The notes under the pieces are model-generated. The model was not told where the DNA came from. It saw only the letters and a program-made list of their open reading frames with translations, and made no database searches. Made by a program: the position numbers and the translations under genes. Shown here in pieces: positions 6,198 through 22,484 of a stretch of 64,000 nucleotides of DNA. The DNA is from Andreesenia angusta. GTDB lineage: Bacteria; Bacillota; Clostridia; Tissierellales; Gottschalkiaceae. Location of the stretch: the NCBI GenBank assembly GCA_030537835.1, contig JAUNVB010000004.1:1-64000 (forward strand), written 5' to 3'. Numbering within the stretch: position 1 is the stretch's first letter; every line of letters begins with the position of its first letter.

Positions 6198-6665
6198 TTA
6201 CACCCTCATATAATCCCCTGATTTACCTCCAGATTTTTTGAGAAGTCTTATATTTTGAATTTCCATATCTTTATTTATGCTCTTACACATATCATATATA
6301 GTCAATGCGGCAATTGATACTCCTGTAATTGCTTCTATTTCGACTCCTGTTTTGCCAAAAGTCTTAACTTCTGATTGTATATATATGCCTTCTTCCTCTA
6401 ATTTAAATCTTATATCTGCTCCTGTTAAAAATATATTATGGCACATAGGAATTAAATCACTAGTTTTCTTAATTCCCATTATTCCACCTATCTGTGCAAC
6501 AGATAAAACATCGCCTTTTTTTATATTTCCATCTACAATTCTATCTAATATCTCTCTATCCATTTTTATGAAACCTTCTGCTATAGCAGTTCTTTTGGTT
6601 TCTTTTTTATCGGTAACCTCAACCATTCTTGCTCTTCCTTCTTCATTAAAATGAGTAAAATCCAT
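6198..6665 (-). CDS. moaC: Cyclic pyranopterin monophosphate synthase MoaC
   Basis: Second enzyme of molybdopterin synthesis; with MoaA it turns GTP into cyclic pyranopterin monophosphate. The 155-residue protein carries [16 protein letters not shown] near the start, the catalytic stretch [45 protein letters not shown] and a KSGGKSGDY end, all diagnostic of MoaC. The length is normal. It is the first gene of a three-gene operon (moaC, CDF transporter, MOSC). A ribosome site GAGG lies seven bases before ATG 6665. Confidence 0.97.
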
Positions 6666-7000: not shown

Positions 7001-7957
7001 TTATCCGCCAATTGTCGACATACTCTTGCTCACGAAATCACCATCTTCTAAATGATGTTCCTCAGGCTTTTTTAAAATCGTCTTTATCAAAAACTCTTTT
7101 AATTCTTCATAATTATCAAGATGTGGTTTTAAGTCTATCTCTTCATTAGAGTGAAGACATAATTTTAAAAATCCTTTAGAAGTCAGTCTTATTCTATTGC
7201 AGTCTTTGCAAAATTTACAGGTTACAGGTTTTATAATACCTACCTTACCTTTAGCACCTGGTAATTTATAATATATAGCCGGTGAAGATGGATCATCTCT
7301 TTTAGTTGGCTCTAATTCTTTTACCTTTTCAAGAACTATATCTCCACTTATTGTATTTTTATCTTTAAGATTCAACACTTCTCCAATAGGCATCAATTCA
7401 ATAAAGCGCACATCTATTTTTCTAAATCTCGTAAGCTCAACTAAATCTCTTATCTCATCAATATTGAATCCATCTATTAAAACTGCATTAATTTTTATAG
7501 GAGTAAGATTTAGTTCTTCCATTTTTTTAATACCCTTTAAAACTTTATCTAAATCTCCTCCTCTAGTGATTTCAGAATATTTCTTTGGATCTAATGTATC
7601 AAGACTTATATTCACTCTATCAAGTCCTGCATTTTTTAAATCTTCAGCATATTCTTCTAGAAGAATTCCATTCGTAGTCATAGTTATCTCATCTATATTC
7701 TCAAGCTTATTTATATTTTTTATAAAATCTATAATATCTCTTTTTACAAGAGGTTCTCCTCCTGTTATTCTTACTTTGTTTACACCTAGCTCTGAAAAAG
7801 CCTTAGTTATAGTGTAAAAATCTTCAAAACTCAATATATTTTCATGTTCTGATTTACATATTCCAGATGCCGGCATACAATATTGACATCTTAAATTGCA
7901 TAAATCTGTAATAGATATCCTCAAATAATTAATTTCTCTACCAAATGAGTCTTGCAA
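7001..7957 (-). CDS. moaA: GTP 3',8-cyclase MoaA (radical SAM)
   Basis: First enzyme of molybdopterin synthesis. The radical-SAM CX3CX2C motif is at Cys20, Cys24 and Cys27 (DLCNLRCQYCMPA). The second cluster motif CX2CX13C is in KDCNRIRLTSKGFLKLC and its preceding cysteines, and the C terminus ends in the conserved Gly-Gly. The 318-residue length is typical. The gene is last in the tupABC-moeA-moeA-moaA run, 12 bases after the second moeA. Start is TTG 7957 with the ribosome site AGGTGG. MoaD and MoaE are not in this window. Confidence 0.97.
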   Translation of the reverse strand: MQDSFGREINYLRISITDLCNLRCQYCMPASGICKSEHENILSFEDFYTITKAFSELGVNKVRITGGEPLVKRDIIDFIKNINKLENIDEITMTTNGILLEEYAEDLKNAGLDRVNISLDTLDPKKYSEITRGGDLDKVLKGIKKMEELNLTPIKINAVLIDGFNIDEIRDLVELTRFRKIDVRFIELMPIGEVLNLKDKNTISGDIVLEKVKELEPTKRDDPSSPAIYYKLPGAKGKVGIIKPVTCKFCKDCNRIRLTSKGFLKLCLHSNEEIDLKPHLDNYEELKEFLIKTILKKPEEHHLEDGDFVSKSMSTIGG

Positions 7958-7969
7958 AAGACCACCTAC

Positions 7970-9853
7970 TTACTCTACTTTTATTATTTCCCCTGTATTT
8001 AAAAGTCTATAACCACCCATTTGCTCTAATTGTTTTTTAAATTCTTCTGATTTTATTATATTAATAAATTTTTTAACCCTCTTATCTTCTAATGATTTTT
8101 CATATATTAGGAAATCATAGTCCTCATAAGCAACCTCTATAAAATCTAACCCCAAAGCTTTAGCTGCTGAATATACGCCTAATCCTACATCAGCATTACC
8201 CGACTTAACTCCTTGGGCTATATCCATATGTGTGTTGTACTCAAGATCATAGCCCTTTATAGATTCAGCGTCTATATTCTTTTCTTTTAATTTATAATCC
8301 AATAAAACTCTTGTTCCAGAACCTCTTTGTCTATTTATAAAAACCACATCATCCCTTAGCAAATCTTCAAAATTCTGTATGTTTTTAGGATTTCCCTTTG
8401 GTACAATGAATCCTTGAATTCTTTGTACTCCTTTTATTATAACAGTATTTTCATTAGGAATATATCTTTTAACATAAGAAATATTATATATTCCTGAATT
8501 TTCATCTAATAAATGGATTGGTGCTATATGTGCCTCTTTTTTTCTCATAGAGATTATTCCACCCATGCTCCCAACATGTGCCGATGAAAGAGAGATTTTA
8601 TCCGATATTATATCTATTATTAAATCATGGCTTCCTATAGAAACTAATTTTTCTTCTATTTCTTCTATATTTTTTAAGAGTTTAACTCTTATTATTTCTC
8701 CGCTTTCCATTCCTTCTAGATTTCTAGGCACTTCTCCTATTCCATCTGCTCTTACAAGACTTGTTGTAGAACCTGCTCCTCCAGATATTGGTGTTGCTAT
8801 TAATTTTGTATCAACTTTACCTATATTCATTCTTATCAATTCTTTATTTTTTAATGATGAATATACTCTTTTAGAAAGAATTGCATCTACATATTCTACT
8901 CTCTCTTTCTCCCCAGAAAACCTTAATAATATAGGTTTAGCAAATGAATCGAAGGCAATATAAGCTGATACTGGATAACCTGGAATTCCTATGACAGGTT
9001 TTCCATTTACTTTACCTAATATAGTTGGTTTTCCAGGCTTTACAGCAATTCCATGAATTATTTTTTCTCCTAATTCATCGATTATTCTCGAAGTATAATC
9101 TTTTGAGCCGGCAGATGAACCTGCAATTATCAGTAATAAATCATTTTCTTTTGAAGCAGAATCTATACCAGATTTTAATTTATCATATTCATCTGGGATT
9201 GGATTATACCTTTTAGGAATGCCTCCGCAATCGATTACTGATCCTGCTAACATGAATGAATTCGTATCTGTTATTTTTCCACTCTCTTCTATAGTAATAT
9301 CCTCTACTATTTCTGAACCAGTTGGTATTATTCCTACTTTAGGTTTCTTATAGACTTCTACTTCTTCAACACCGCCTGATATTATTGCCCCTAAATCTAA
9401 AGCTCTTATCTTATGATTTGTCGGCAAAATCATTTCTGTAGCAACTATATCTTCACCAATATTTCTAACGTATTGCCATGGATGTGTTGATTGATTTATC
9501 TGAACTCTGCCATCACCTAATTCTATAACATCTTCAATCATTATTACAGAGTCATATCCTTCTAAAATTGGATTTCCAGTGTTTATATATAAAAAATCCT
9601 CTCCCTCTTTTAATATTTTCGGATTCATTTCTGATGCGCCCTTAGTTTTTTCAGAGTTTACAATAATGCCGTCCATAGCAGCAGAATTGTAATGAGGTGA
9701 TGATTTTTTTGCAAATACTGGCTTTGATGTTATTCTACCTTGTGCTTCTATAGATGATATTTTTTCAGTGTTCTTCGTAAAGTCTATTTCATTAATATAT
9801 TTATCTATAGCAATTTCTATATCCATATTATCTATATACCTATTTCTATCCAT
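7970..9853 (-). CDS. MoeA-type molybdopterin molybdenumtransferase fused to a periplasmic-binding-like domain
   Basis: A 627-residue, two-part protein. Residues about 1-400 are MoeA-like: SPHYNSAAMDGIIV near the start and GIIPTGSEIV, then IAGSSAGSKDYT and HGIAVKPGKPTILG in the MoCF-like domain. Residues about 410-627 match the PBP-like domain often annotated 'MoeA/LysR substrate-binding' (FINRQRGSGTRVLLDYKL, GLGVYSAAKALGLDF), which is thought to sense molybdate, tungstate or cofactor. MoeA inserts the metal into adenylylated molybdopterin. It directly follows a second moeA, and both follow the tungstate transporter. The ATG has a good ribosome site (AAGGTGG). Confidence 0.92.
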   Translation of the reverse strand: MDRNRYIDNMDIEIAIDKYINEIDFTKNTEKISSIEAQGRITSKPVFAKKSSPHYNSAAMDGIIVNSEKTKGASEMNPKILKEGEDFLYINTGNPILEGYDSVIMIEDVIELGDGRVQINQSTHPWQYVRNIGEDIVATEMILPTNHKIRALDLGAIISGGVEEVEVYKKPKVGIIPTGSEIVEDITIEESGKITDTNSFMLAGSVIDCGGIPKRYNPIPDEYDKLKSGIDSASKENDLLLIIAGSSAGSKDYTSRIIDELGEKIIHGIAVKPGKPTILGKVNGKPVIGIPGYPVSAYIAFDSFAKPILLRFSGEKERVEYVDAILSKRVYSSLKNKELIRMNIGKVDTKLIATPISGGAGSTTSLVRADGIGEVPRNLEGMESGEIIRVKLLKNIEEIEEKLVSIGSHDLIIDIISDKISLSSAHVGSMGGIISMRKKEAHIAPIHLLDENSGIYNISYVKRYIPNENTVIIKGVQRIQGFIVPKGNPKNIQNFEDLLRDDVVFINRQRGSGTRVLLDYKLKEKNIDAESIKGYDLEYNTHMDIAQGVKSGNADVGLGVYSAAKALGLDFIEVAYEDYDFLIYEKSLEDKRVKKFINIIKSEEFKKQLEQMGGYRLLNTGEIIKVE

Positions 9854-9883
9854 TTTTCCACCTTCTCATTTTAAGCTTAATCA

Positions 9884-11110
9884 TTAAATATATATAACTT
9901 TTCTAACAGCGCCTTCATATATTCCCTCTTCATCTGAGTCTATTTTTATATATCCATCTGCTTTTGAAATAAGACTTATCATTCCCGACTTACCAAAAAC
10001 TGGTTTAGCATAGAGTTCTCCCTTTTTCTCATAGACTTTTACCATCTGATAAGTTGTCTTTCCTGAAGATGATGGAAAATTACTATCAAGCTTACAATAT
10101 GCAAATTTTTCTTTCTCTTCCATGCCTAAAACTTTTCTTATACTTGATTTAACAACTATATTATATATTATTATTGAAGAAGCTGGATGTCCAGGAAGAC
10201 CAAAGACAAACTTATCCTTAGCTTCTCCAATTATTGTAGGTTTTCCAGGTTTTATCGATATTCCGTGTACAAATACTCCATCTTTACCTAATTCATTTAT
10301 GACATCAGATGTGTAGTCTTTGGTTCCAACGGAGGATCCTCCTGATATTAATACCATATCAGAGTTATCTATACCTTTTTTAACTGCTTCTCTTAATTTT
10401 TCATATTCATCTTTAATTATTAATCTATCAACTACTTCATGATTCATATTTATTAAATCTGATGCTATAACATAACTATTTATATCTCTGATCTGTCCAC
10501 TTTTTATATCATCATCTATATCTACTATTTCATCTCCTGTTGAAATAATAGTAAATTTTAATTTTCTAAATACTCTTATTTTTTCAATGCCTTGACTAGC
10601 CAATACACCTATATCGTAAGCAGTTATTGCTTTTCCTTTTTCTATCAATATAGAGTTTTCAGAAATATCATCGCCACGTCTTAATATATTAGAGCCATCT
10701 GATACTGCCTTATAGATCATTATAGTTTGATCATCTAACTCTTCAGCATTCTCTATCATAACGACTGAATCAGCTCCTTTAGGAAGCATTCCTCCGGTAG
10801 GTATATAAGAAGCTTCTCCTGATTTTATCTCTCTTTTTGGAGCTTCACCCATATCTATTCTCTCTACAATACTGAGCATACTAGGTATAGTAGAACTTGC
10901 TCCAAAAGTATCCTTACAGCTCACAGCATATCCATCGACAGTCGAACGAGTAAATGATGGAACTATTTCTCTTGATTTCACCTCTTCAGCTGATATTCGT
11001 CCTATTGCATCTATTAACATAATTTCTTCTGAATCTATATTATAATTATCAACTCTTTTATCTATTTCTTCATATACTTCTTCTATACTTTTAGTATTAA
11101 AAAAATCCAA
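9884..11110 (-). CDS. moeA: Molybdopterin molybdenumtransferase MoeA
   Basis: A single-domain-architecture MoeA of 408 residues, the usual length. Motifs are VPSFTRSTVDGYAV (residues about 48-61), YIPTGGMLPKGADSVVMIE, ISTGDEIV, ISGGSSVGTKDYTSDVI and HGISIKPGKPTIIGEAKDK. It ligates the metal (Mo or W) to molybdopterin-AMP. It lies 17 bases after tupC and 30 bases before the fused moeA paralogue, so both probably share the tungstate-uptake transcript. Start TTG 11110 follows GAAGGTGA. Why two paralogues are kept is discussed in the findings. Confidence 0.95.
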   Translation of the reverse strand: MDFFNTKSIEEVYEEIDKRVDNYNIDSEEIMLIDAIGRISAEEVKSREIVPSFTRSTVDGYAVSCKDTFGASSTIPSMLSIVERIDMGEAPKREIKSGEASYIPTGGMLPKGADSVVMIENAEELDDQTIMIYKAVSDGSNILRRGDDISENSILIEKGKAITAYDIGVLASQGIEKIRVFRKLKFTIISTGDEIVDIDDDIKSGQIRDINSYVIASDLINMNHEVVDRLIIKDEYEKLREAVKKGIDNSDMVLISGGSSVGTKDYTSDVINELGKDGVFVHGISIKPGKPTIIGEAKDKFVFGLPGHPASSIIIYNIVVKSSIRKVLGMEEKEKFAYCKLDSNFPSSSGKTTYQMVKVYEKKGELYAKPVFGKSGMISLISKADGYIKIDSDEEGIYEGAVRKVIYI

Positions 11111-11127
11111 TATATCACCTTCATTAT

Positions 11128-11757
11128 CTATATTCTATTTATATCGGTTAAGTTTATCTCTTTATTGCATAATCTATTTATCTGCTCTTTATTATGACTA
11201 ACTACTATAATACTAGCTTTCTTTTCTCTATGATATTCTAAGACTAGATTTTCCATCTCTGATACCATTTTATCATCTATATTTGAAGTGAATTCATCTA
11301 ATAGTAATAATTTAGGCTCTAATATTAAAGCTCTAGCAAGAGAAACTTTTTGTGTCTCTCCACCAGAAAGTACATTGCCTGATCTATCTGATATACTTTT
11401 TAAATTTAATTTATCTAGATAAAAATTCACTTTTTCTACTCTGTCTAATTTCGATATTTTTCTTAATTTCAATGGATATTCTATATTTTCAAATACAGTT
11501 TTTTTGAAAATATAGGGTTTTTGATGAACTAATGTTATATCTTTTTGTTCTATATCCTTGTATTCTAAGCCATCATATAATATCTTTCCTTGATATTTTA
11601 AATCTATTCCCGCTATAATATTTAATAATGTCGATTTTCCAGATCCATTTTTTCCTGTTAATCCGACAATATCTCCAGAATCAAAAACCATATTATCAAT
11701 ACTCAGAATATGATTTTGCTTAAAATACTTGTTTAGATTTTCAATTCTTATTTCCAT
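11128..11757 (-). CDS. tupC: Tungstate ABC transporter ATP-binding protein
   Basis: A 209-residue ABC ATPase: Walker A GKNGSGKST (residues about 36-44), Q-loop LVHQKPYIF, signature LSGGETQKVSLARAL, Walker B LLLLDEFTS and a switch histidine in VVSHNK. It lacks the C-terminal TOBE extension of ModC-type molybdate ATPases, as expected for TupC. The gene starts one base after the permease stop region and shares its ribosome site (GGAGG) with the permease end. It energises tungstate uptake by TupA and TupB for the cofactor of the formate dehydrogenase encoded upstream. Confidence 0.88.
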   Translation of the reverse strand: MEIRIENLNKYFKQNHILSIDNMVFDSGDIVGLTGKNGSGKSTLLNIIAGIDLKYQGKILYDGLEYKDIEQKDITLVHQKPYIFKKTVFENIEYPLKLRKISKLDRVEKVNFYLDKLNLKSISDRSGNVLSGGETQKVSLARALILEPKLLLLDEFTSNIDDKMVSEMENLVLEYHREKKASIIVVSHNKEQINRLCNKEINLTDINRI

Positions 11758-11758
11758 A

Positions 11759-12448
11759 TTAATCCTCCGAACTATATTTATATATTACAGAATTAATTCC
11801 AAAAGATATTATTATTAGTACCAAACCCAATGCTATAGCCATAGGATAATCTCCCATAGAGTTTAACATAGATATAGAAGTAGTTATTACTCTTGTCTGT
11901 CCTTTTATATTTCCACCGACAATCATAACTGCTCCAACTTCTGATATCGCTCTTGAAAAACCGGTTATTATATTTATTAAGAGATTTCCTCTCAGTTCTG
12001 AAATAATCATTTTGACCGTTTCTTTATTTCCTCCACCAAGAGTCTTGCAGGTATCAGCTATTATCTTTCCATTGTTTTTAGCTAATCCATATGATAGTCC
12101 AATTAACAGAGGAGTTAATAAAGCCGTTTGAGCTATAATCATTGCTCTAGGAGTATACATTAAATTCAAGAAACCTATTGGTCCTCTTCTAGATAAGAGT
12201 ATACTTATTAATAGTCCTACTATTACTGAAGGAATACTCATAAATGTATATATTATTCGAGAAATCGTATTTGGAAATCTAAGCTTCTTAACTCCCAGAT
12301 ATAGTCCTAAAGGAATAGAGTATACTGAAGCTAAAATAGTAGCTGTAAGAGATACTCTAATAGACAAGAATATTATTCCATAAAGTTCTTTATCAAAACT
12401 AAATAAAAGTTCTATCGCTTTTTTTAAACCATCTACAATATAATCCAT
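11759..12448 (-). CDS. tupB: Tungstate ABC transporter permease
   Basis: A roughly 229-residue membrane protein with about five to six helices and the binding-protein-dependent permease loop with a conserved EAA-like motif (CKTLGGGNKETVKMIISELRG). SVRVSLTATILAS-like start and AISEVGAVMIVGGNIKGQTRVITT are typical of TupB. ATG 12448 follows GAGGGAATAT; an earlier in-frame ATG 16 codons upstream has no ribosome site, so the shorter form is called. It lies between tupA and tupC. Confidence 0.88.
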   Translation of the reverse strand: MDYIVDGLKKAIELLFSFDKELYGIIFLSIRVSLTATILASVYSIPLGLYLGVKKLRFPNTISRIIYTFMSIPSVIVGLLISILLSRRGPIGFLNLMYTPRAMIIAQTALLTPLLIGLSYGLAKNNGKIIADTCKTLGGGNKETVKMIISELRGNLLINIITGFSRAISEVGAVMIVGGNIKGQTRVITTSISMLNSMGDYPMAIALGLVLIIISFGINSVIYKYSSED

Positions 12449-12561
12449 ATATTCCCTCACAATAAAATAATCATTTTTGTAAATTAATACCATCAATTTA
12501 AATTCTATATTTCAAAACTCTAGGCTATTTAAATAAAATAATTAATATAATTATATAAAAC

Positions 12562-12588
12562 AAAAAAGGGACCTAAGCCCCTTTTTTT
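12562..12588 (-). terminator. Attenuator-type terminator between tupA and tupB
   Basis: Hairpin of AAAAAAGGG with CCCTTTTTT, loop of seven to eight bases, overlapping the tupA stop codon. The minus-strand side ends in a T run. A terminator directly after the binding-protein gene is a common way to make more binding protein than permease; that role is inferred. Confidence 0.7.
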
Positions 12589-13519
12589 ATTCTGCATTCG
12601 GTGTGAACAATGGTTGTCCATATTTATCTACGCCAAAGTCAGATATTAATTCTTGTACTTCTGCTGAAGTTATCCACTCTTCAAAAGCTTTTGCTCCTTC
12701 AGTGTTTACAGTTTCTACTCCTGATTTTTCAGGATTTACAGGTATTACCCCGTATTGATTATATAATACATCTTCTTTTTCAGTTACTATATCTAAATCT
12801 AAATCATCTTTCATACTTAGATAAGTTCCTCTATCAGCTATAGTGTAAGCTTGCTTTTCGCTAGCCATTTTAAGTACATCACCCATACCACTTCCTGCTG
12901 ATATATACCATTCTCCTTCTGGTTCTATTTCTGCTGATTTCCAAATCTTAAGCTCTGCTTTATTAGTACCAGAATCATCTCCTCTCGATACAAAAGGTGT
13001 TGCTGTTTCGCTTATCTCTTTTAGAGCTCCTTTTATATCATTTGGATGATTTTCTTTTATCTGAATTGGATCTGATTTTGGTCCGAGTAGAATAAAGTCA
13101 TTATACATAACATCTTTTCTCTCTAATCCATAACCTTCTTCAACAAATTTTTCTTCCTCAGATTTAGCATGGACTAAAAGCACATCTGCTTCACCATTTC
13201 TTCCCATTTCTAAAGCTTTTCCTGTTCCTACTGCAACAGTTTTTACTTTAATTCCTGTTTCTTCAGTGAATTTTGGTAATAAAAAGTCTAAAAGACCACT
13301 GTCCTGTGTACTAGTCGTAGTAGATAGAATGATTTCCCCTGCTTCTTCTTTTTCTTCATCATTCTTTTCTTCTTTTTGATCTTCTTTCTTTTCTTCAACC
13401 TGAACTTCTTGTTTACTGTCTTCTGTATCACTTTTCTCTTGTTCATTTGAGCCACATCCTACCGCTATCATAGATACCAGTGAAATGGCCATTAAAATTG
13501 TTAATAGTCTTCTTTTCAT
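12587..13519 (-). CDS. tupA: Tungstate-binding lipoprotein TupA
   Basis: Extracellular tungstate-binding protein of the TupABC transporter. The 310 residues begin with a lipoprotein signal peptide (lipobox AVGC, Cys22), then an acidic/lysine-rich linker to about residue 60, then the TupA signature STTTSTQDSGLL, and further VAVGTGKALEMGRNGEADVLLVHA and FVSRGDDSGTNKAELKIW, all conserved in TupA/WtpA-like tungstate binders. TupA binds tungstate with high selectivity over molybdate in characterised relatives. Neighbouring formate dehydrogenase genes suggest the metal is used there. The ATG has a strong ribosome site (AAGGAGG). Confidence 0.92.
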   Translation of the reverse strand: MKRRLLTILMAISLVSMIAVGCGSNEQEKSDTEDSKQEVQVEEKKEDQKEEKNDEEKEEAGEIILSTTTSTQDSGLLDFLLPKFTEETGIKVKTVAVGTGKALEMGRNGEADVLLVHAKSEEEKFVEEGYGLERKDVMYNDFILLGPKSDPIQIKENHPNDIKGALKEISETATPFVSRGDDSGTNKAELKIWKSAEIEPEGEWYISAGSGMGDVLKMASEKQAYTIADRGTYLSMKDDLDLDIVTEKEDVLYNQYGVIPVNPEKSGVETVNTEGAKAFEEWITSAEVQELISDFGVDKYGQPLFTPNAE

Positions 13520-13739: not shown

Positions 13740-14519
13740 TTATAAATATCTATCTATATTAGTATAGACATTCATCTTTAAACCTCTTGCAAATCCTATA
13801 GTTGTTATATTTAAATCATTTGCAATTTTTATAGCGAGTTCTGTCGGTGCAGATTTAGATACAACTGCTGGTATTCCTCTCTTAGCTATTTTTATCATTA
13901 TTTCTGATGAAATTCTTCCTGTAGTCAATACTATCTTATCATCTAATGCTATATCCGACATAACAGCTTTTCCAATTATCTTATCTAATGCATTATGTCT
14001 TCCTATATCATCTCCAAAAACTAGTATCTCCTTTCCATCAGATAACGCACAGCTATGAACTCCTCCAGTTTGTAAAAACATTTCCGAGTATCTATTAAAT
14101 TTTCTAACAAGATCTCTTATCTCTTCTAGATTCATTTTAAAATTCGAATCTACTTTTTTTGATTTAAAAGAATCTACAACGCTATAAAAAACTGTTCCTT
14201 TTCCACAACCAGAAGTCAATGTTCTCTTACCATATAACTTTTCCATTAGATTAGTTTTTTTTACAGTTTCAACATATCCAATGCCTTTTTCTTCATCTAT
14301 CTTTATGCTCTCTATATCCTCTTTTTTATCTATTAGACCTTCTGATACTAAAAAGCCTACTAAAAGATAATCTAAAGAACTTTGAGTGCAGAGAAGAGTT
14401 ATAAATTCTTTTCCATTTAAAAATATTGTAAATGGATATTCCGTTATTATACTATCTTCTTCAACAAATTTTTCTTCATTTCTAAGTTTTAATACCTCTC
14501 TAATAGTTATTCCATCCAA
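13740..14519 (-). CDS. fdhD: Formate dehydrogenase accessory sulfurtransferase FdhD
   Basis: Needed for active formate dehydrogenase: it transfers sulfur from a cysteine desulfurase to the metal cofactor. The 259-residue protein has VKKTNLMEKLYGKRTLTSG, then GGVHSCALSDGKEILVFGDD and IGRHNALDKIIGKA, plus the C-terminal TTGRISSEIMIKIAKRGIPAVVSKSAPT block, all FdhD hallmarks. In the reactive loop only one cysteine is present (SGCGKGT), where E. coli has CxxC. TTG 14519 follows AGGAGG with seven bases between. It is the last gene of the formate dehydrogenase operon. Confidence 0.95.
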   Translation of the reverse strand: MDGITIREVLKLRNEEKFVEEDSIITEYPFTIFLNGKEFITLLCTQSSLDYLLVGFLVSEGLIDKKEDIESIKIDEEKGIGYVETVKKTNLMEKLYGKRTLTSGCGKGTVFYSVVDSFKSKKVDSNFKMNLEEIRDLVRKFNRYSEMFLQTGGVHSCALSDGKEILVFGDDIGRHNALDKIIGKAVMSDIALDDKIVLTTGRISSEIMIKIAKRGIPAVVSKSAPTELAIKIANDLNITTIGFARGLKMNVYTNIDRYL

Positions 14520-14520
14520 T

Positions 14521-15108
14521 TTATTTCCTCCTAATCATATAGTCTTTTAAATCCTGCTGGGTATTAAGATTTAAAAATATATCACTACCATATCCTTCTT
14601 CTATCTCTACTATACGTGATTTCGAACTATATACTAAATTTCGGATAGCGAGGATATCTTCATCTAGGAGCTTTTCTATTCTAGGTATTAAACCCTTATT
14701 ATAGAATCCATTGAAGAGTTCTAATCTTCCTTCTCTTTTAGGTATACAGATTTCTATTTCTTCATTATCAATTTTTGATTCCATAAAATCTATAAAACTT
14801 AAATCTATTTCGGGCATATCACATGCCAAAAAATAAACATATTCACTACTAGAATTCTTAAGCGCTGCATGTATGCCACTTAAAGGTCCTTTTTGAAATA
14901 TTATATCTTTAATAGTTATTATATATTCTTTATCTTTATAAAATTGCTGATTGTTCGTTACTACTATGATTTCATCAAATTTCTCTTTTAATTTTTCAGC
15001 ATTTCTCTTCACTATATTCTGTCCATTGAACTCAATTAGCTGTTTATCAAATCCCATTCTTGAACTTTTTCCACCAGCTAATATAGCAACTGTTCCAAAT
15101 TTTTTCAA
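14521..15108 (-). CDS. mobA: Molybdenum cofactor guanylyltransferase MobA
   Basis: Adds GMP to the metal-pterin cofactor to make the bis-guanine-dinucleotide form used by formate dehydrogenases. The N terminus has the nucleotidyltransferase signature VAILAGGKSSRMGFDKQL, and later FLACDMPEIDLSFID with the metal-binding Asp. I prefer TTG 15108 as the start: it follows AGGTGAT, lies just past the moaB stop, and begins MKKFGTVAILAGG. A longer frame from TTG 15135 overlaps moaB. The length, about 195 residues, is normal. The fdhD start follows its stop by one base. Confidence 0.93.
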   Translation of the reverse strand: MKKFGTVAILAGGKSSRMGFDKQLIEFNGQNIVKRNAEKLKEKFDEIIVVTNNQQFYKDKEYIITIKDIIFQKGPLSGIHAALKNSSSEYVYFLACDMPEIDLSFIDFMESKIDNEEIEICIPKREGRLELFNGFYNKGLIPRIEKLLDEDILAIRNLVYSSKSRIVEIEEGYGSDIFLNLNTQQDLKDYMIRRK

Positions 15109-15119
15109 AATATCACCTG

Positions 15120-15614
15120 CTATTTCCTCGCGCAATCTGATGCATTTCCGAGCATTATATCGAGTCCATGTGTTACTGAATCTATAATATACTCCAATGT
15201 TTCTTTGACCGCTTTTTCACTACCTGGTAAATTTATTATTAAGCTATTATTCTTTCTTATGCCTGATATCCCTCTAGATAGCATTCCTCTAGGAGTTATC
15301 TGGAGACTATGATATCTCATAGCCTCCGATATCCCTGGAGTAGGTTTGTCAATTACTGCTTCAGTTGCTTCAGGAGTATTATCTCTTATACTAAATCCTG
15401 TTCCTCCTGTTGTTAATATGAGTTCTATACCTAATTGATCAGACATATAGATCATCTCTTCTGACAATAATTTTTTATCATCCGGCAATATTGTCTTTCT
15501 TTCTACTTTATATCCTTTAGATTCTACAATTTCCTTTATTGCAGATCCACTCAAATCCTCTCTCTGTCCTTTAGAACCCTTGTCACTTGCTGTAATTATA
15601 CCTACTCTATACAT
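15120..15614 (-). CDS. Molybdopterin adenylyltransferase-type protein (MoaB/Mog)
   Basis: A 164-residue MoCF-domain protein. Motifs are VGIITASDKGSKG (residues 3-15), LILTTGGTGFSIRDNTPEAT with the MPT-binding GGTG, and the DKPTPGISEAMR stretch. It adenylylates molybdopterin before metal insertion by MoeA. Family members are named mogA or moaB, and the symbol cannot be decided here. ATG 15614 is chosen behind GGGGAGG; a longer frame begins inside the ferritin-like gene. It stands in the formate dehydrogenase operon between the ferritin-like gene and mobA. Confidence 0.93.
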   Translation of the reverse strand: MYRVGIITASDKGSKGQREDLSGSAIKEIVESKGYKVERKTILPDDKKLLSEEMIYMSDQLGIELILTTGGTGFSIRDNTPEATEAVIDKPTPGISEAMRYHSLQITPRGMLSRGISGIRKNNSLIINLPGSEKAVKETLEYIIDSVTHGLDIMLGNASDCARK

Positions 15615-15619
15615 AAATT

Positions 15620-16132
15620 CTAGCCTCCCCAAGGAAGTGTTAAATATTCTTTTTTCATTCTATCGTATTCTGCTTTAAATAGCTTCTCATGGCCATCTTC
15701 CCAAGCCGCAAGTTTATTCAATAGTTTTTTAATTTCTGGATCTTCCACTTCTTCAGCCGATTCTTGATAGAACTCTTTAAAGTCTCTTTCTATTAAATAA
15801 GCCATTCTAAGAATTGTTAAATCTGGTACATCCGACTCTACAAGAGTTGTATCTATATTCTCAGATTGTTGTCTGAATTCGAATATAGAAGACTCATCCC
15901 TATTTAAAAATTCTGTATTCACTTTATAATCATCACTATTTGCATAGTTCTTTATTTCTTGCTCAATATACTTATAGTGCTCATATTCTGCCTCTGATAA
16001 TCTAAGAAATAATTCCTTAGTAGTAGCACTTCTAAAAGCCTCTGCTTTTTCTTTGAAAAAATTATATCCATCTAACTCCATTTGTCTTGCAAACTGAAGT
16101 ATTCTAAGACACTTTGTTCTTTGATCTTCCAT
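15620..16132 (-). CDS. Ferritin-like/rubrerythrin-type diiron protein in the formate dehydrogenase operon
   Basis: A 170-residue all-helical protein with the four-helix ferritin-like arrangement: ligands E19 (ARQMELDGYNFF), the ExxH pair E49/H52 (AEYEHYKY), E in AYLIERDFKEF, and the final ExxH in WEDGHEKLF. No C-terminal rubredoxin Cys motif is present, so it is an erythrin rather than a full rubrerythrin. Its role beside formate dehydrogenase is unknown. Peroxide or oxygen protection of the enzyme, or iron storage, are guesses. It starts behind GAGGGG and lies 26 bases after fdhF in the operon. Confidence 0.82.
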   Translation of the reverse strand: MEDQRTKCLRILQFARQMELDGYNFFKEKAEAFRSATTKELFLRLSEAEYEHYKYIEQEIKNYANSDDYKVNTEFLNRDESSIFEFRQQSENIDTTLVESDVPDLTILRMAYLIERDFKEFYQESAEEVEDPEIKKLLNKLAAWEDGHEKLFKAEYDRMKKEYLTLPWGG

Positions 16133-16158: not shown

Positions 16159-18843
16159 TTACACTATCTTCTCAATTCTAACTGCTGCAACTTTAAGTTC
16201 AGGAATTTTACAAATACTATCTCTCTCTGTATTTGTCAACATATTCGCTGCTCCATCTGCAAAGTGAAATGGCATGAATACAACATTTTTATTTACTATA
16301 GGTGTTATTTTGGCTTTGGTTTCCGTATCCCCACGTCTAGATTTTACTCTAACTACTTCACCATCACTTATATTGAGTTCTTTAGCTATATTTTCACTTA
16401 TCTCTATAAATGACTCTGAAACTTTTTCATTAAGCCCATCAACTCTTCCTGTCATTGTTCTAGTATGATAATGGTACAATACTCTTCCTGTAGTAAGAAT
16501 ATACGGATATTCTGTATCAGCCATCTCTGCACTATCTCTATGGTCTGCTGGGAAGAATAGACCTTTACCTCTAGCCATTGCATCTTTGTGTAGATAATCT
16601 GTTCCCGGATGATCCTTTGATGGACATGGCCATTGTATACCAGTCTCTTCTATTCTTTCATACGATATTCCTGTATATGATGGAGTTAAGCTCGCTATCT
16701 CTTCCATTATTTCTGAAGGATTATTATATTGTTTTTCATAACCAAATCTATTCATAAGCTCCATGAATATCATCCAGTCAGGTTTTGCATCTCCAACAGG
16801 ATCTATAGCTTTTCTAACTCTTTGAACTCTTCTTTCTGTATTAGTAAAAGTTCCTTCCTTTTCAGCGAATGATGCTGCAGGTAAAACTACATCTGCATAT
16901 TCACTAGTTTCATTCATAAAAATATCTTGGACAACTAAAAAGTCTAAATTCTCTAATGCATGCTTCACATGATTTAGATCTGGATCAGAAACCATTGGAT
17001 TCTCACCAAATACATAGAGCATTTTTAAATCACCATCTGCAGCTCCATCCATTATCTCTGATAATGTAAGACCGATTTTAGATGATAATTTTGCTCCCCA
17101 TGCTTCTTCAAATCTATCTATTACCTCAGGCTTCATAACTTTTTGATATCCTGGTAAATCTGCTGGTAAACATCCCATATCACAAGAGCCTTGAACATTG
17201 TTTTGGCCTCTAAGAGGATTAATTCCTGCAGATGCTTTTCCAATATTACCACAAAGAAGTGATAGATTAGATAATGCCATTACATTATAAGTTCCTAAAG
17301 TATGTTGAGTTATTCCCATAGCATAGAATATTCCTGCTTTTCCTGCTTTAGCATATATTCTAGCCGCCTTTATTATATCTTCAGCATCGACTCCGCATAT
17401 CTCAGCTGCATATTCAGCTGTATATGGTTTTACAAGCTCAACTAAATCTTCATAGTCTGCAGTTCTCTTTTCTATATATTCTTTATCTTCTAATCCTTCT
17501 TCTATTATTATATGAATCATAGAGTTTATAAGAGCCAGATTAGTTCCTGGTCTTATTTGAAGATAAACATCTGCATAATCAGCCATTTCAATTCTTCTAG
17601 GATCTGCGACTACCAATTTAGCTCCTTTTTCTATTGCTTGCTTCATATGTGAAGCTATTACCGGATGATTCTCTGTTGTATTAGATCCAATTATAAACAT
17701 AGCATCTGTATCTAATATATCTTCTATACTATTCGTCATAGCTCCGCTTCCTAATGTAGTTGCAAGACCTGCAACCGTAGAAGCGTGTCAGAGACGAGCA
17801 CAGTGATCTATATTATTAGTACCTATTACTGCTCTAAATAGCTTTTGGAATAAATAATTATCTTCATTAGTACATCTAGCTGAAGCAAATCCTCCAATAG
17901 CATCAGAACCATATTTTTCCTTGATTTCATTAGTTCTTTCTACTATATAAGCATATGCTTGTTCCCAACTAGCTTCTTCAAGTTTACCATTTTTTCTAAT
18001 AAGTGGTGTCTTTAATCTGTCTGGGCTATTTATAAATTTATATCCAAATTTACCCTTTACACAAAGGAGTCCATTATTAGGTGTTACATTAAGAGGTTTA
18101 ACTCCTATTATATTATTATCTTTTACTACAAGATTTATTTGACATCCAACCCCACAGTATGAACATGTAGTCCTAACTTCTCTTTGATCCCATATTCTAG
18201 TTTTAGGAATATATTTACTTCTCTTTGGCATAAGCGCTCCTACTGGACAAACCGATACACAGTTTCCACATGAAACACATGTCGATTTATTTATACCTAA
18301 TTCAAAAGGAGTTCCTACATGAGTCTCAAAACCTCTGCCATTCAATTCTATTGCAGAAGTTCCTTGTAGCTCTTGACAAGCTCTTACGCATTTCCCACAT
18401 AGTATACATTTACTAGGATCATAATAGTAAAATGGATTTGTCATATCTATCTTAAGAGATCTTTTTTCTCCTTCATAGGTTCCTCTTGCAACTCCATATT
18501 CATAACAATAGTCTTGAAGTTTACAATCACCTGATTTATCACAAGTTAAACAGTCATTAGGATGGTTAGAGAATAGTAGATCTAATAAATCTTTTCTCGC
18601 TCTCATAACTTTTTCGCTATGAGTTTGTACATTAAGACCCTCATAAACCTCTAAAGAGCATGATGTCATTAAATTACTTTTTCCTTCTACCTCTACTATA
18701 CAGAGTCTACATGCTGCATGCGCTCTAAGTCTTTCATCATAGCAAAGTGTAGGTATCTCTATACCCATATTCCTACAAGCCTGTAAAACTGTGATTCCCT
18801 CTTCTACCATACATTCAGTTCCATTGATGATTATTTTTATCAC
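16159..18843 (-). CDS. fdhF2: Formate dehydrogenase catalytic subunit, selenocysteine-containing (FdhF2 type)
   Basis: Read as one gene of 895 codons with an in-frame UGA (17788-17790) at residue 352 coding for selenocysteine. Around it the protein reads NNIDHCARL-U-HASTVAGL, the active-site sequence of formate dehydrogenases, with His directly after the Sec. N terminus: a 2Fe-2S domain (Cys about 34, 45, 48, 62), a His/Cys3 4Fe-4S site (HPNDCLTCDKSGDC), two ferredoxin-type clusters (CILCGKC, CVSCGNC) and the CSYCGVGC...CVKGKFG cofactor-proximal cluster with the conserved Lys. The rest binds the bis-pterin cofactor. In C. acidurici the relative FdhF2 pairs with HylABC in an NAD- and ferredoxin-dependent enzyme. 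The split is therefore not a frameshift. Confidence 0.93.
17745..17787 (-). promoter_or_regulatory. Bacterial SECIS element for selenocysteine insertion
   Basis: Directly after the UGA, the minus-strand RNA can form a lower stem CGCTTC/GAAGCG (17780-17785 with 17745-17750) and an upper stem GTTGCA/TGCAAC (17759-17764 with 17770-17775) closed by a GGTCT loop (17765-17769). The apical part GGTTGCAGGTCT is the same as in the E. coli fdhF SECIS, and the loop begins 18 bases after the UGA, the usual distance. This supports UGA decoding by SelB and SelC. The element lies inside the coding sequence. Confidence 0.93.
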
Positions 18844-18916
18844 AGTATCACCTCAATCTTCAATTTTCAAGTTTCAAAATATAATAACTATAATTTTTTA
18901 TTTTTATACCTTTATA

Positions 18917-19043: not shown

Positions 19044-20003
19044 CTACTTTTCTTCAGATTCTATTTTTTCATTTTCATTTTGTTTCAAAAGTTTCTCTAA
19101 TATACCTTCTAGACCCATAGTCTCTTCCCAAGAAGCTTCGACAAACTTTCCATCAACTTTCTTATAAGTTGTATCAGGATTGTCAAGATACAAGAATTCT
19201 GTAGTCATTCTTCCTTTTAGACAAAGAGGTCTTCCTACAATAGGTTTTTTAGCTCTAACAGCAACTCTCTTTCCGTTTTTTGATAGAACTTCAAACATAC
19301 ATCCATATTCACAAACCTTACATTGAACCTCTTCAACCTGACCTTCCCAAGTTCTTGCTTTTCCAGAAAATCTTCTATCTAACAGGGCTCCTACAGGACA
19401 TACAGCTACACATCTATTACAAGATACACAAGTAGATTCTTCTAAACTCATATTAGCGTCTGCTGCTATCTTTGTATCAAATCCTCTATTAGCAAATGTC
19501 AATACTTGTCTGTCTGAAACTTCTGCACAAGTTCTAACACATTTCCCGCATAGTATACATTTTGTATCATTTTTAATTATATATGGGCTAGAATTATCAA
19601 ATACTTTCCCAGCTTTTCTAGCTCCATCATGTTCTCTAAATACAACTCCATATTTATAAGCAGCATCTTGCAATAAACATTCTCCTGCTTTTTGACATGT
19701 TAAACAATCATTTGGATGATTGTCTAATAAAAGCTGTAATATATCTTTTCTTGCATTTTTTATCTTTTCTGTTTCAGTATTAACAACCATACCATCCTGT
19801 ACTACTATTGAGCATGAAGTCTGTAATTTGTTTACTCCCTCAACTTCAACAATACAAAGTCTACATGCTGAAACTATTTCTAACCCCGGTTCATAGCATA
19901 ATGCCGGTATATTTATACCTACTGTTGCTGCTGCTTGAAGTATGGTATAGTTTTCTGGTACCGTAACGTTTATGCCGTCTATAGTAAGATTAACATTTCT
20001 CAT
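19044..20003 (-). CDS. hylA: NuoG/HydA-like iron-sulfur subunit HylA
   Basis: A 319-residue iron-sulfur protein with the modules of the N terminus of NuoG and HydA: 2Fe-2S (CYEPGLEIVSACRLC), a His/Cys3 4Fe-4S site (HPNDCLTCQKAGEC), two ferredoxin clusters (CILCGKC, CVSCNRC) and a last cluster CKVCEYGC...PLCLKG. It stops there, with no molybdopterin or hydrogenase H-cluster domain. It is likely the electron wire between HylB and the formate dehydrogenase, as in the C. acidurici complex (inferred by analogy). The start ATG has AGGAGG. Gene order is hylC-hylB-hylA-fdhF2. Confidence 0.88.
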   Translation of the reverse strand: MRNVNLTIDGINVTVPENYTILQAAATVGINIPALCYEPGLEIVSACRLCIVEVEGVNKLQTSCSIVVQDGMVVNTETEKIKNARKDILQLLLDNHPNDCLTCQKAGECLLQDAAYKYGVVFREHDGARKAGKVFDNSSPYIIKNDTKCILCGKCVRTCAEVSDRQVLTFANRGFDTKIAADANMSLEESTCVSCNRCVAVCPVGALLDRRFSGKARTWEGQVEEVQCKVCEYGCMFEVLSKNGKRVAVRAKKPIVGRPLCLKGRMTTEFLYLDNPDTTYKKVDGKFVEASWEETMGLEGILEKLLKQNENEKIESEEK

Positions 20004-20045: not shown

Positions 20046-21920
20046 CTATCTCTTTATAACTGCTCCTACAGGACAAACTGTTTGACAGTTTCCACACTTA
20101 ATACAAGCCTCTGTATTTATAATATGCTTTTCTTTCACTTTACCATCTATACAATTAACAGGACAATTTCTTGCACATTTTGTACAACCAATACAATTGT
20201 CTGTTATGTGGAATTCTAGTAATTCTTGACAAACACCAGCTGGACATTTCTTATCTTTAACATGAGCTTCATATTCTTCTCTAAAGTATTTCATAGTAGA
20301 TAATACTGGGTTCGGCGCTGTTTGACCTAATCCACAAAGTGATGATATCTTAATAGTTTCAGCAAGGCTTTCTAATCTCTTAAGATCAGCCATAGTTCCT
20401 TTACCTTCTGAAATCTTTTCAAGTAGTTCTAGCATTCTCTTAGTTCCTTCACGGCAAGGCGTACATTTACCACATGACTCCTCAACAGTAAAGTCAAGAT
20501 AGAATCTTGCTATGTCAACCATGCAAGTTTCCTCATCCATAACTATCATACCACCAGACCCCATCATAGATCCCATTGCTGAAAGGTTCTCAAAATCTAT
20601 TGGAGTATCTATATCGTCTGCTGTTATACATCCTCCAGATGGTCCTCCAGTTTGAACAGCCTTGAATTTTTTTCCACCAGGTATTCCTCCACCAATATCA
20701 TAAACAACTTCTCTTAATGTAGTACCCATTGGTATTTCAACAAGACCAGTATTATTTACTTTTCCTCCTAATGCGAAAACTTTTGTTCCTGGTGAGCCTT
20801 CTGTACCATATGTTTTAAACCATTTAGCTCCCTTTCTTATTATCTGAGGAACGTTTGCATAAGTTTCAACATTATTTATAAGAGTTGGCTTCTGCCATAA
20901 TCCTTTGTTAGCAGGGAAAGGTGGCTTATTTCTAGGCATTCCTCTTTCTCCTTCAATCGATGCAATAAGTGCTGTCTCCTCACCACAAACGAAAGCTCCT
21001 GCCCCAAGTCTAATTTCAAGATCAAAGTTAAAGCCTGTGCCAAATATATTTTTTCCTAAAAGTCCTCTTTCCTTAGCTTGATCTATAGCTATCTGTAGTC
21101 TTTGTACTGCAATAGGATATTCTGCTCTTATATATACATATCCTTGCTCTGAACCTATTGCATATCCTGCTAATTCCATAGCTTCTATAACTGAATGAGG
21201 ATCTCCCTCAAGAATAGATCTATCCATGAATGCTCCTGGGTCTCCCTCGTCAGCATTACATAGTACATATTTTATATCTCCTGTAGCGTTTGCTGTAAAT
21301 TCCCATTTTAATCCTGCTGGGAATCCACCACCACCTCTACCTCTTAATCCTGATTCTTTCATTTCAGCTGTAACCTCATCAGGTGTCATTTCTGTAAGTG
21401 CTTTATATAATGCTACATATCCATCATAAGCTATATATTCTTCTATGCACTCTGGATCTATCATTCCACAGTTTTTAAGAGCTATTCTTTCTTGCTTTGC
21501 ATAGAATTGTACTTCATCTATAGCTTTTATTACATCATCTTCTATAGCACCTTTATAGAGAAGATCCTTTACAACTTCATTATTTGTGAGATCACTATCT
21601 ACAATTGTTTCAACATCTTCTAAATCGATATGACTATAAAATGTTCCCTCCGGATAAACAACAACAACTGGTCCTGCTTCACATAATCCAAAACAACCAG
21701 TTCTTACAACATCCACATCTTCTGTCATGCCTTTTTCATCTAAGATATTTCTAAACTTTTTTTCTATTTTATCGGACTTAGATGATGTACATCCTGTTCC
21801 ACGACAAATAAGCACTTGTTTTTTAAATACACTTTCATCTTCTTTAGTATCATTGTGTCTTAGTGCTATCTTAGGCAATGTATTCTTTTTTATTATTTCC
21901 AAATCTTTCATAGTAATCAC
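20046..21920 (-). CDS. hylB: NuoF/HydB-like NAD(P)-binding flavoprotein subunit HylB
   Basis: A 624-residue protein with four parts: an N-terminal thioredoxin-like 2Fe-2S domain (CRGTGCTSSKSDK, VRTGCFGLCEAGP; residues about 34-85), the NuoF flavin and nucleotide core (GLRGRGGGGFPAGLKW, NADEGDPGAFMDRS), the 4Fe-4S site ESCGKCTPCREG...SLCGLGQ, and two C-terminal 4Fe-4S ferredoxin motifs (CIGCTKCARNCP and CIKCGNCQTVCP). This is the layout of HydB/HylB of bifurcating enzymes, the proposed site of flavin-based electron bifurcation with NAD(P). GTG 21920 follows GGGGGTG; an ATG three codons in is the alternative. Confidence 0.93.
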   Translation of the reverse strand: MITMKDLEIIKKNTLPKIALRHNDTKEDESVFKKQVLICRGTGCTSSKSDKIEKKFRNILDEKGMTEDVDVVRTGCFGLCEAGPVVVVYPEGTFYSHIDLEDVETIVDSDLTNNEVVKDLLYKGAIEDDVIKAIDEVQFYAKQERIALKNCGMIDPECIEEYIAYDGYVALYKALTEMTPDEVTAEMKESGLRGRGGGGFPAGLKWEFTANATGDIKYVLCNADEGDPGAFMDRSILEGDPHSVIEAMELAGYAIGSEQGYVYIRAEYPIAVQRLQIAIDQAKERGLLGKNIFGTGFNFDLEIRLGAGAFVCGEETALIASIEGERGMPRNKPPFPANKGLWQKPTLINNVETYANVPQIIRKGAKWFKTYGTEGSPGTKVFALGGKVNNTGLVEIPMGTTLREVVYDIGGGIPGGKKFKAVQTGGPSGGCITADDIDTPIDFENLSAMGSMMGSGGMIVMDEETCMVDIARFYLDFTVEESCGKCTPCREGTKRMLELLEKISEGKGTMADLKRLESLAETIKISSLCGLGQTAPNPVLSTMKYFREEYEAHVKDKKCPAGVCQELLEFHITDNCIGCTKCARNCPVNCIDGKVKEKHIINTEACIKCGNCQTVCPVGAVIKR

Positions 21921-21971: not shown

Positions 21972-22484
21972 TTAATCCTCTACAATAGGAAGTTCGCCTG
22001 TCTTATACTTGTTTATAATATCTTTAACCTCATCAGGCTGAAGTCTTCCATAAACATCCTCGTTTATAGTCATAACTGGTGCTAAACCACATGCCCCAAT
22101 ACATCTTGTTGCAGTTAAAGAAAATTTTCCATCTTTTGTAGTGCTTCCAACAGCTAAATCTAAATCTTCTGAAATAACATCCACAACTTTCTGTGAACCC
22201 TTTACATAGCATGCTGTTCCTAAACATACACCTATTTCGTATTGGCCTTTTGGTATAAGCGTAAACTGTGCATAGAAAGTTACAACTCCATATACCTCAG
22301 CCAATGGAATCCCCAAACCTTTAGATATCTTTTGCTGGACTTCTATCGGAAGATATCCGAACATGTGTTGTGCTTCATGAAGAACTTCCATAAGAGCACC
22401 TTTTTTTGTCTTTCTCTTTTCAATAAACTTATCAAGTTTCTGAAGCTTTTCTTTATTAGCTTCCATATCGAATTTGAATTCCAT
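21972..22484 (-). CDS. hylC: NuoE/HydC-like 2Fe-2S subunit HylC
   Basis: A 170-residue thioredoxin-like 2Fe-2S protein, the family of NuoE and HydC. The four cysteine ligands are in GVCLGTACYVKGS and TATRCIGACGLAP. It partners the flavoprotein HylB and is first in the hylC-hylB-hylA gene set, with ATG 22484 behind an AGGAGG site. In bifurcating hydrogenases and formate dehydrogenases this subunit is part of the NAD(P) module. A candidate promoter lies about 75 bases upstream. Confidence 0.95.
   Translation of the reverse strand: MEFKFDMEANKEKLQKLDKFIEKRKTKKGALMEVLHEAQHMFGYLPIEVQQKISKGLGIPLAEVYGVVTFYAQFTLIPKGQYEIGVCLGTACYVKGSQKVVDVISEDLDLAVGSTTKDGKFSLTATRCIGACGLAPVMTINEDVYGRLQPDEVKDIINKYKTGELPIVED

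Follow-up and report, generated by a model that had tools for sequence, protein, structure and literature searches.

Does a formate dehydrogenase reading frame that runs into a UGA codon at its active site encode one selenoprotein, or two separate products? The question is raised by positions 16159-18843 of the first 64,000 nucleotides (nt) of Andreesenia angusta contig JAUNVB010000004.1 (the window, numbered on its forward strand), where a plain listing of open reading frames (ORFs) gives two products, of 351 and 526 amino acids (aa). A sequence-only reading had taken these for one gene of 895 codons in which the UGA at 17788-17790 specifies selenocysteine (Sec), had expected standard gene calling to split it, and had described the RNA after the UGA as a two-stem hairpin resembling the selenocysteine insertion sequence (SECIS) of E. 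coli fdhF. The gene and its splitting are borne out by the analysis that follows; the description of the hairpin holds in part. The gene, fdhF, almost certainly encodes the catalytic subunit of a molybdenum (Mo) or tungsten (W) formate dehydrogenase, with its UGA translated as selenocysteine. The case for Sec readthrough is made by a single conserved frame, the placement of the UGA at the active site, a SECIS-type hairpin that is constrained in UGA-containing genes, and the presence of selA, selB, selC and selD in the genome.

A single reading frame through the UGA

The interval holds one gene, on the minus strand (the strand had been left unstated). With TGA read through, its 895 codons (894 residues and a stop) form one frame, whose sole internal TGA, at 17790-17788, lies within DHCARL-U-HASTVAGL, the active-site sequence that had been proposed, at codon 352. 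Frame 1 of the plus strand contains stops throughout the same interval.

16159..18843, minus strand: fdhF, formate dehydrogenase alpha subunit, 894 aa; GTG start at 18843-18841, stop at 16161-16159, UGA as Sec codon 352
17788..17790, minus strand: in-frame UGA, predicted to be read as selenocysteine, residue 352 (from the homologue alignment; TGC or TGT is kept in 46 non-TGA homologues)
18848..18855, minus strand: putative Shine-Dalgarno-like sequence GAGGTGAT 5' of the GTG start, noted from the sequence itself

The product scores 919.9 bits against TIGR01591 (Fdh-alpha; cut-off 666.25) over profile positions 1-672 of 672, which places it in that family by curated profile score, and it carries NuoG-type [2Fe-2S] and [4Fe-4S] domains N-terminal to its molybdopterin domains. 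It is identical to E. coli FdhF at 303 of 687 aligned positions (44%), active site included. Residues 352-353 (Sec-His) and PLRGQNNVQGSCDMG, for the RGQNNVQG motif, align with E. coli FdhF, and these are presumably the catalytic residues. Unlike the A. angusta protein, E. coli FdhF has 715 aa and lacks the NuoG-like N-terminus. Among solved structures, the best near-full-length matches to the alpha subunit are the formate dehydrogenases 9wxb and 6tg9 (residues 3-890), the latter of which we take to be the NAD-linked FdsABG. The arrangement is of a well-known type, and the gene itself is ordinary.

Conservation of the UGA and its exchange with cysteine

Among the 41 genomes sampled (own, genus, family and order), 24, counting the own genome, contain a full-length match with identity of 60% or more; in 22 of these the best such match has TGA at the Sec position or lies next to one that has it, and the other two have cysteine (Cys). 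Two of the 22 (G002 and G003) hold a further full-length copy without TGA, and the 26 full-length sequences at this identity comprise 22 with TGA and four with Cys codons. In 21 other genomes of the order the TGA stands at the same place with no other internal stop, and named genome records carry it likewise, which makes a sequencing error, raised at the outset as a possible source of the UGA, very unlikely. When named genomes are added, 111 distinct full or partial homologues (121 rows less the misaligned L047, which is another protein, the E. coli gene L009, and eight duplicates) divide at codon 352 into 65 with TGA and 46 with TGC or TGT; the UGA thus aligns with Cys or Sec of its homologues. 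A tree of 110 of the 111, from which one partial row was omitted, requires no fewer than 14 changes of the Sec/Cys label, 11 of them forced by well-supported (starred) branches, compared with 35 for shuffled labels. Such exchange agrees with the available text of PMC1794560, which describes few Sec-to-Cys replacements, mostly in formate dehydrogenase and selenophosphate synthetase.

The SECIS hairpin

The elements predicted in the RNA around and after the UGA are the following.

17758..17776, minus strand: apical hairpin of the bacterial SECIS; seven pairs, one of them G-U, with a GGUCU loop (17769-17765) and a UGA-loop spacing of 18 nt
17745..17785, minus strand: complete two-stem fold; 7 base pairs (bp) form its lower stem (17785-17779 with 17751-17745), which is largely specific to this sequence
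17735..17793, minus strand: match to Rfam SECIS_3 (RF01989), whole model 1-59; 52.6 bits, E 1.3e-11 (301 bases)

The RNA folds into two stems as had been claimed (-16.4 kcal/mol, z -3.07, none of 200 shuffles as good), and the apical hairpin also folds by itself (z -3.74, 1 of 200 shuffles as good). Conservation is concentrated in the upper stem, pairing of which is retained in 407 of 427 cells for 61 distinct Sec sequences, as against 235 of 315 for 45 distinct Cys sequences. At two pairs of this stem both bases have changed among the Sec sequences (TA 53, CG 6, GC 2 at one; AT 52, CG 5, TA 1 at the other). For the bacterial SECIS consensus model behind bSECISearch, the available text of a 2026 review (PMC13188914) gives a stem of 4-16 bp, a loop of 3-9 nt with G at its first position, a spacing of 16-37 nt and an energy limit of -7.5 kcal/mol; the apical hairpin lies within all of these (7 bp, 5 nt, 18 nt, G first, -7.9 kcal/mol). 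The lower stem was also considered as a conserved part of the SECIS and is largely rejected, since most of its pairs are kept in only about half of the Sec sequences. Three of its seven pairs do hold in 54, 61 and 61 of the 61 Sec sequences, but the two at 61 hold also in 45 and 44 of the 45 Cys sequences and, being equally kept there, give no support for an RNA role.

How much of this element is shared with E. coli? The claim that the top of the hairpin is identical to the E. coli fdhF SECIS stands for the 12 letters GGTTGCAGGTCT, which occur in MG1655 fdhF in the same codon register; taken as CGGTTGCAGGTCT, the identity extends to 13 bases, with Sec at the aligned position. It follows in part from the shared peptide VAGL, although synonymous choice is constrained too. 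The broader description of the SECIS as E. coli-like holds for the letters of the loop and needs qualifying for the predicted pairing: the E. coli hairpin is predicted to have a bulged U and a 4-nt loop (in a minimum-energy fold with a z of only -1.01), whereas the 7-bp stem of the A. angusta hairpin is uninterrupted and its loop has 5 nt. In a lax covariance-model scan of 301 bases, the element is nearer to SECIS_3, the whole of which is matched with UGA and apical hairpin in register, although the A. angusta sequence has non-standard pairs at several places in the model's lower stem, than to SECIS_2 (RF01988). On the latter it scores 17.0 bits (E 1.1), below the gathering score of 70, whereas E. 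coli fdhF itself scores 87.1 bits. The second formate dehydrogenase of the same genome scores 48.0 bits on SECIS_3.

Synonymous constraint downstream of the UGA

Codon choice indicates that in Sec genes the RNA is under selection as well as the peptide VAGL. Over the usable columns of codons +1 to +14, mean codon identity in the 65 Sec genes is 0.602, compared with a maximum of 0.540 in 222 other 14-codon windows; in the 46 Cys genes it is 0.316, which is lower than the mean of their windows (0.381). Background columns of equal degeneracy never match the uniformity of seven of the eight codons +4 to +11, and 1.6% of them match that of codon +8; taken singly, codons +1 and +12 to +15 do not stand out. 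When phylogeny is handled by 11 independent Sec/Cys pairs, GGT at codon +7 is associated with Sec in 7.6 of them and with Cys in 0.0 (median p 0.008). It is the restriction of this synonymous constraint to Sec genes that argues for selection on RNA beyond VAGL, and the comparison set amounts to a natural experiment, in which the codon-level SECIS RNA signal follows at least 11 Sec/Cys changes.

Selenocysteine machinery and other selenoproteins

The selA, selB, selC and selD genes, a search for which had been proposed as one check on the sequence-only reading, are all present in the genome above curated cut-offs: tRNA-Sec (selC) at 72.2 bits (cut-off 47), SelA at 635.9 (267.9), SelB at 344.3 (242.25) and SelD at 383.6 (125). 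They are clustered in the order selD-selA-selB-selC on contig C7 (40391 to 35784). The selD gene (L051:9354-10391) has an in-frame UGA of its own, so that selenophosphate synthesis would rely on selD's own product. A second UGA-bearing formate dehydrogenase, 51% identical to the first, is located at C23:23191-25863; a UGA-bearing GrdA gene is on contig C15 and UGA-bearing GrdB-type genes are on C15 and C21, and the two GrdB elements exceed the Rfam SECIS_4 cut-off of 38 with 61.7 and 65.1 bits. From what is established for such systems, SelB-GTP would carry Sec-tRNASec, bind the fdhF hairpin and compete with RF2 at the UGA.

Probable partners in electron transfer

Three genes upstream of fdhF, oriented in the same direction, bear on the reaction that the enzyme would catalyze.

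21972..22484, minus strand: NuoE/HylC-like [2Fe-2S] subunit, 170 aa (ORF listing and profile matches)
20046..21920, minus strand: NuoF/HylB-like flavin mononucleotide (FMN) and NADH subunit, 624 aa (ORF listing and profile/Pfam matches)
19044..20003, minus strand: HylA-like/NuoG N-terminal iron-sulfur subunit, 319 aa (FeFe_hydrog_A6 profile, positions 1-209 of 571 only)

The operon thus has the hylA-, hylB- and hylC-like genes by which an electron-bifurcating formate dehydrogenase is recognized, and at least 13 of the 41 genomes, own included, have a HylA-like gene less than 300 bases upstream of the formate dehydrogenase gene and on its strand. The HylA-like subunit is not itself assigned to the [FeFe] hydrogenases, as no H-cluster family is among its 10 Pfam hits. 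According to the available text of PMC5861303, HylABC-FdhF2 of Clostridium acidurici couples formate oxidation to reduction of ferredoxin and NAD+, and its metal site is tabulated as Mo-Sec. Of the complexes described so far, it is the closest of which we are aware. The likeness to that system, by published description rather than by sequence, consists in a Sec FdhF, a NuoF-like FMN subunit and hydrogenase-like subunits; unlike it, the A. angusta operon runs on into rubrerythrin-like, cofactor and Tup-like genes. On the basis of established knowledge, Sec352 would ligate Mo or W, and the enzyme would interconvert formate and CO2. Electrons would pass through the iron-sulfur clusters of FdhF and the HylA-like subunit to the NuoF-like FMN subunit and from there to NAD+ and ferredoxin.

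Alternative explanations

Cys homologues exist and the ORF listing splits fdhF, so the UGA might have arisen in a Cys-type enzyme by nonsense mutation or by an error of sequencing, and the two ORFs might be pieces of a pseudogene; the same TGA in 21 other genomes that have no other internal stop, and in named records, together with sel genes and with a hairpin and synonymous constraint that belong to TGA genes, makes a broken gene exceedingly improbable. Very improbable, too, is a division into two working proteins, an iron-sulfur protein ending at the UGA and a catalytic protein beginning at the ATG at 17739, notwithstanding that this ATG follows the UGA with GGAG just 5' of it, and that both ORFs are listed: the methionine in question is ATG in 65 of 65 Sec genes and 46 of 46 Cys genes, the Cys genes run on uninterrupted, and the split would fall inside a domain whose alignment with E. 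coli FdhF is unbroken. Some readthrough is general at UGA-C contexts, and the codon might therefore be decoded in another way, by near-cognate insertion of Trp or Cys or in a reassigned code. That is scarcely credible in a genome with Sec machinery and a SECIS, at a codon where Sec and Cys exchange, and with TGA as the terminal codon of 11 ORFs longer than 200 codons in the window and in eight loci of the own genome or its family. Translation of the UGA as Sec makes fdhF another clean example of a known selenoprotein, and one more instance in which plain ORF calls cut a Sec gene in two.

Several facts weigh against parts of this reading. The genome (1.52 Mb, 97.7% complete) is fragmented into 54 contigs. 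The SECIS_3 score lies under the gathering score of 63 and hence outside membership of that family, which is why a curated Rfam scan at gathering scores does not report a SECIS for the window. Of the seven pairs in the lower stem, four hold in only 29, 29, 31 and 33 of the 61 Sec sequences. The TupA- and MobA-like products encoded downstream score under their curated cut-offs, so that the metal may be either Mo or W, and electron bifurcation is argued from gene content, with a HylA-like subunit that is short (319 aa). With Sec inserted all the same, the enzyme could be a simple NAD-dependent formate dehydrogenase that is not coupled to ferredoxin, a rival to the bifurcation step alone. In its favor, the subunit matches 6tg9 and 9wxb from residue 3 to residue 890, and gene content does not prove bifurcation; set against it is the resemblance of the HylA/HylB/HylC-like set to HylABC-FdhF2 as described in the available text of PMC5861303. 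The NAD-only enzyme is accordingly a real, if doubtful, possibility; bifurcation to NAD+ and ferredoxin, as suggested by the gene set, is rather probable.

The base before the UGA

The Sec genes have a further regularity, on the 5' side of the UGA, which raises the question of whether recoding is also specified upstream.

17791..17793, minus strand: Leu codon CTC, adjoining the UGA on its 5' side, with C at position -1 (codon counts in Sec and Cys genes)

In the 65 Sec FdhF genes the codon before the UGA is CTC in 47, ACC in 7, TTA in 3, TTG, CTT and GTC in 2 each, and ATC and GTT in 1 each. C consequently occupies -1 in 57 of 65, or in 57 of the 60 in which C is a synonymous choice within the same codon box, although in the rest of these genes CTC encodes 5.3% of Leu residues. 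The -1 column ranks first of 519, with the 518 others all lower (mean 0.186, maximum 0.754). In Cys FdhF genes, C precedes the Cys codon in 15 of 42, which is background (column mean 0.356). The contrast is sharp where third-position GC is below 0.40: of the formate dehydrogenase genes there, 45 of 49 with Sec have C at -1, as do 4 of 23 with Cys.

Other, unrelated selenoprotein families of the order, in which the residue before Sec varies, show the same preference. In GrdA, GTC precedes the UGA in 43 of 44 (background 7.4%); in GrdB, ACC does so in 33 of 45 (column background 0.134; 4 of 277 columns are as high); and in SelD, GGC does so in 27 of 62 (background 0.137), with three of 211 columns as high, two of which are codons +4 and +13 after the UGA. 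Cys SelD genes have GGC in 1 of 10, a weak control, as the ten are mostly of one family and differ in local peptide. PrdB has GGC in 14 of 27, and HesB-like genes, sampled at the level of the phylum, have it in 16 of 26 (6.5 expected). The fdhF, fdnG and fdoG genes of E. coli all have GTC-TGA. At the stop codons of long ORFs in the window and eight own or family loci, C precedes TGA in 1 of 11 and TAA or TAG in 13 of 109. Codon rarity was considered as the cause of -1 C and is unlikely, ACG being as rare as ACC in grdB (4% each); at the -1 codon of grdB, ACG and ACC occur 0 and 24 times in one sample and 2 and 33 times in another. The loci counted were for the most part the best-scoring ones rather than a random draw.

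These counts have to be set against others that fit the preference poorly. The contrast diminishes in formate dehydrogenase genes whose third-position GC is at least 0.40 (12 of 16 with Sec, 11 of 23 with Cys). PrdB also favors GGG (9 of 27). SelD sampled at the level of the class (21 genes) has GGC in 6 and GGG in 8, and FdnG-type formate dehydrogenases of the phylum have C in 17 of 29 (10.5 expected), the 29 including one false motif match that lacks the C. In the A. angusta genome itself, three of the six genes considered conform (CTC, ACC and GTC), SelD having GGA and both GrdB genes ACT. A phylogenetically paired test gives 5.0 for and 0.5 against in 11 pairs, which is not significant (median p 0.125); its controls give 0.4 for and 2.1 against at codon -2, and 2.8 for and 0.7 against at codon -3. 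Finally, the Rfam consensus of both SECIS_2 and SECIS_3 already has that C, paired within the outer stem in SECIS_2 and unpaired in SECIS_3, a circumstance that somewhat lowers our estimate for a general 5' element.

Pairing of the -1 C with a fixed downstream base, sought through covariation over 57 positions in each family, is not clearly supported: the top z is 2.8 for formate dehydrogenase, 2.7 for SelD, 2.7 for GrdB and 2.3 for PrdB. Position +23 ranks near the top in each of the two SelD sets (z 2.3 and 2.5), and GrdA, which has a single variant, is uninformative. There are hints of pairing, nevertheless. Leu CTC is found with GGA at codon +15 in 27 of 47 genes, as against 0 of 7 with other Leu codons (Fisher p 0.010, not corrected for phylogeny), and the predicted pairing probability of the -1 base is 0.65 in GrdB, where +32 is its likeliest partner (0.46), and 0.80 in GrdA, where +21 is (0.27).

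A general 5' element of bacterial Sec recoding, NNC-UGA, selected at its synonymous third base, is thus a tentative proposal, and on present counts an unlikely one. If it exists, -1 C would act at the ribosomal P site, where C-ending codons are read by G34 tRNAs, either through less termination by RF2 or through better delivery of Sec-tRNA; alternatively, its role would be that of an outer pair of the SECIS. No discussion of the preference was found in the literature searched, most subscription papers being out of reach, so that this is not proof of absence; the passages on upstream context in PMC4513850, PMC8659212, PMC12013277, PMC13188914, PMC1242214 and PMC1794560 contain none. Only the generality and function of the preference are possibly new. 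If true, it would provide a simple cis signal for selenocysteine decoding and a feature for selenoprotein prediction.

Downstream genes of the operon

Downstream of fdhF are genes for a rubrerythrin-like protein and for synthesis and supply of the metal cofactor.

15620..16132, minus strand: rubrerythrin/ferritin-like protein, immediately 3' of fdhF (PF02915, 49.7 bits)
15120..15632, minus strand: MoCF_biosynth (Mog/MoaB-like) protein (Pfam domain)
14521..15135, minus strand: MobA-like molybdenum cofactor guanylyltransferase (best score 125.8 bits, under the cut-off of 164)
13740..14519, minus strand: FdhD sulfurtransferase (TIGR00129, 216.2 bits, cut-off 140.9)
11128..13519, minus strand: TupABC-like tungstate/molybdate ABC transporter, three genes (TupA-like 232.3 bits, cut-off 400; permease and ATPase domains)
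7970..11110, minus strand: two MoeA-type molybdotransferases, 7970-9853 and 9884-11110 (profile matches)
7001-7957: MoaA-like protein, downstream of fdhF
6198-6665: MoaC protein, downstream of fdhF

The gene set would fit an NAD(ferredoxin)-linked Mo/W formate dehydrogenase together with its cofactor supply. Between the HylA-like gene and fdhF there is a terminator-like hairpin (19012-18987, minus strand; 11 pairs followed by TTTTCT), which might attenuate fdhF expression or separate it from that of the upstream genes; the stretch has four terminator-like sites, compared with 2.2 expected from shuffling.

Neighboring Sec and Cys copies in related genomes

G002 and G003, which belong to the same family, have both types of formate dehydrogenase as Sec and Cys copies, separated by 0.2-0.7 kb (first type) and 2.2-2.7 kb (second type).

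L053 (G002:C2:3076705-3082212), L054 (G003:C19:11473-17438), L057 and L058: nearby Sec/Cys copies in same-family genomes

The proximity of the copies suggests an isoform switch that depends on selenium; a literature search on paired Sec/Cys formate dehydrogenases turned up nothing on point. Among the full-length matches listed, the A. angusta genome and its genus mate have TGA copies only and no Cys copy. On the tree, the first-type Cys copies group with the G003 Sec copy, inside a group that is sister to the A. angusta genus, and from this nesting it follows that the genus probably never had a spare Cys copy of the first type. The rubrerythrin-like gene of the A. angusta operon (15620-16132, minus strand) sits at the place that the Cys paralogue occupies in G002 and G003. 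The HylA-like gene beside the tandem Sec/Cys pair of G003 (C19:17460-18377) has one in-frame TAA, and may be a broken gene or reflect a sequencing error.

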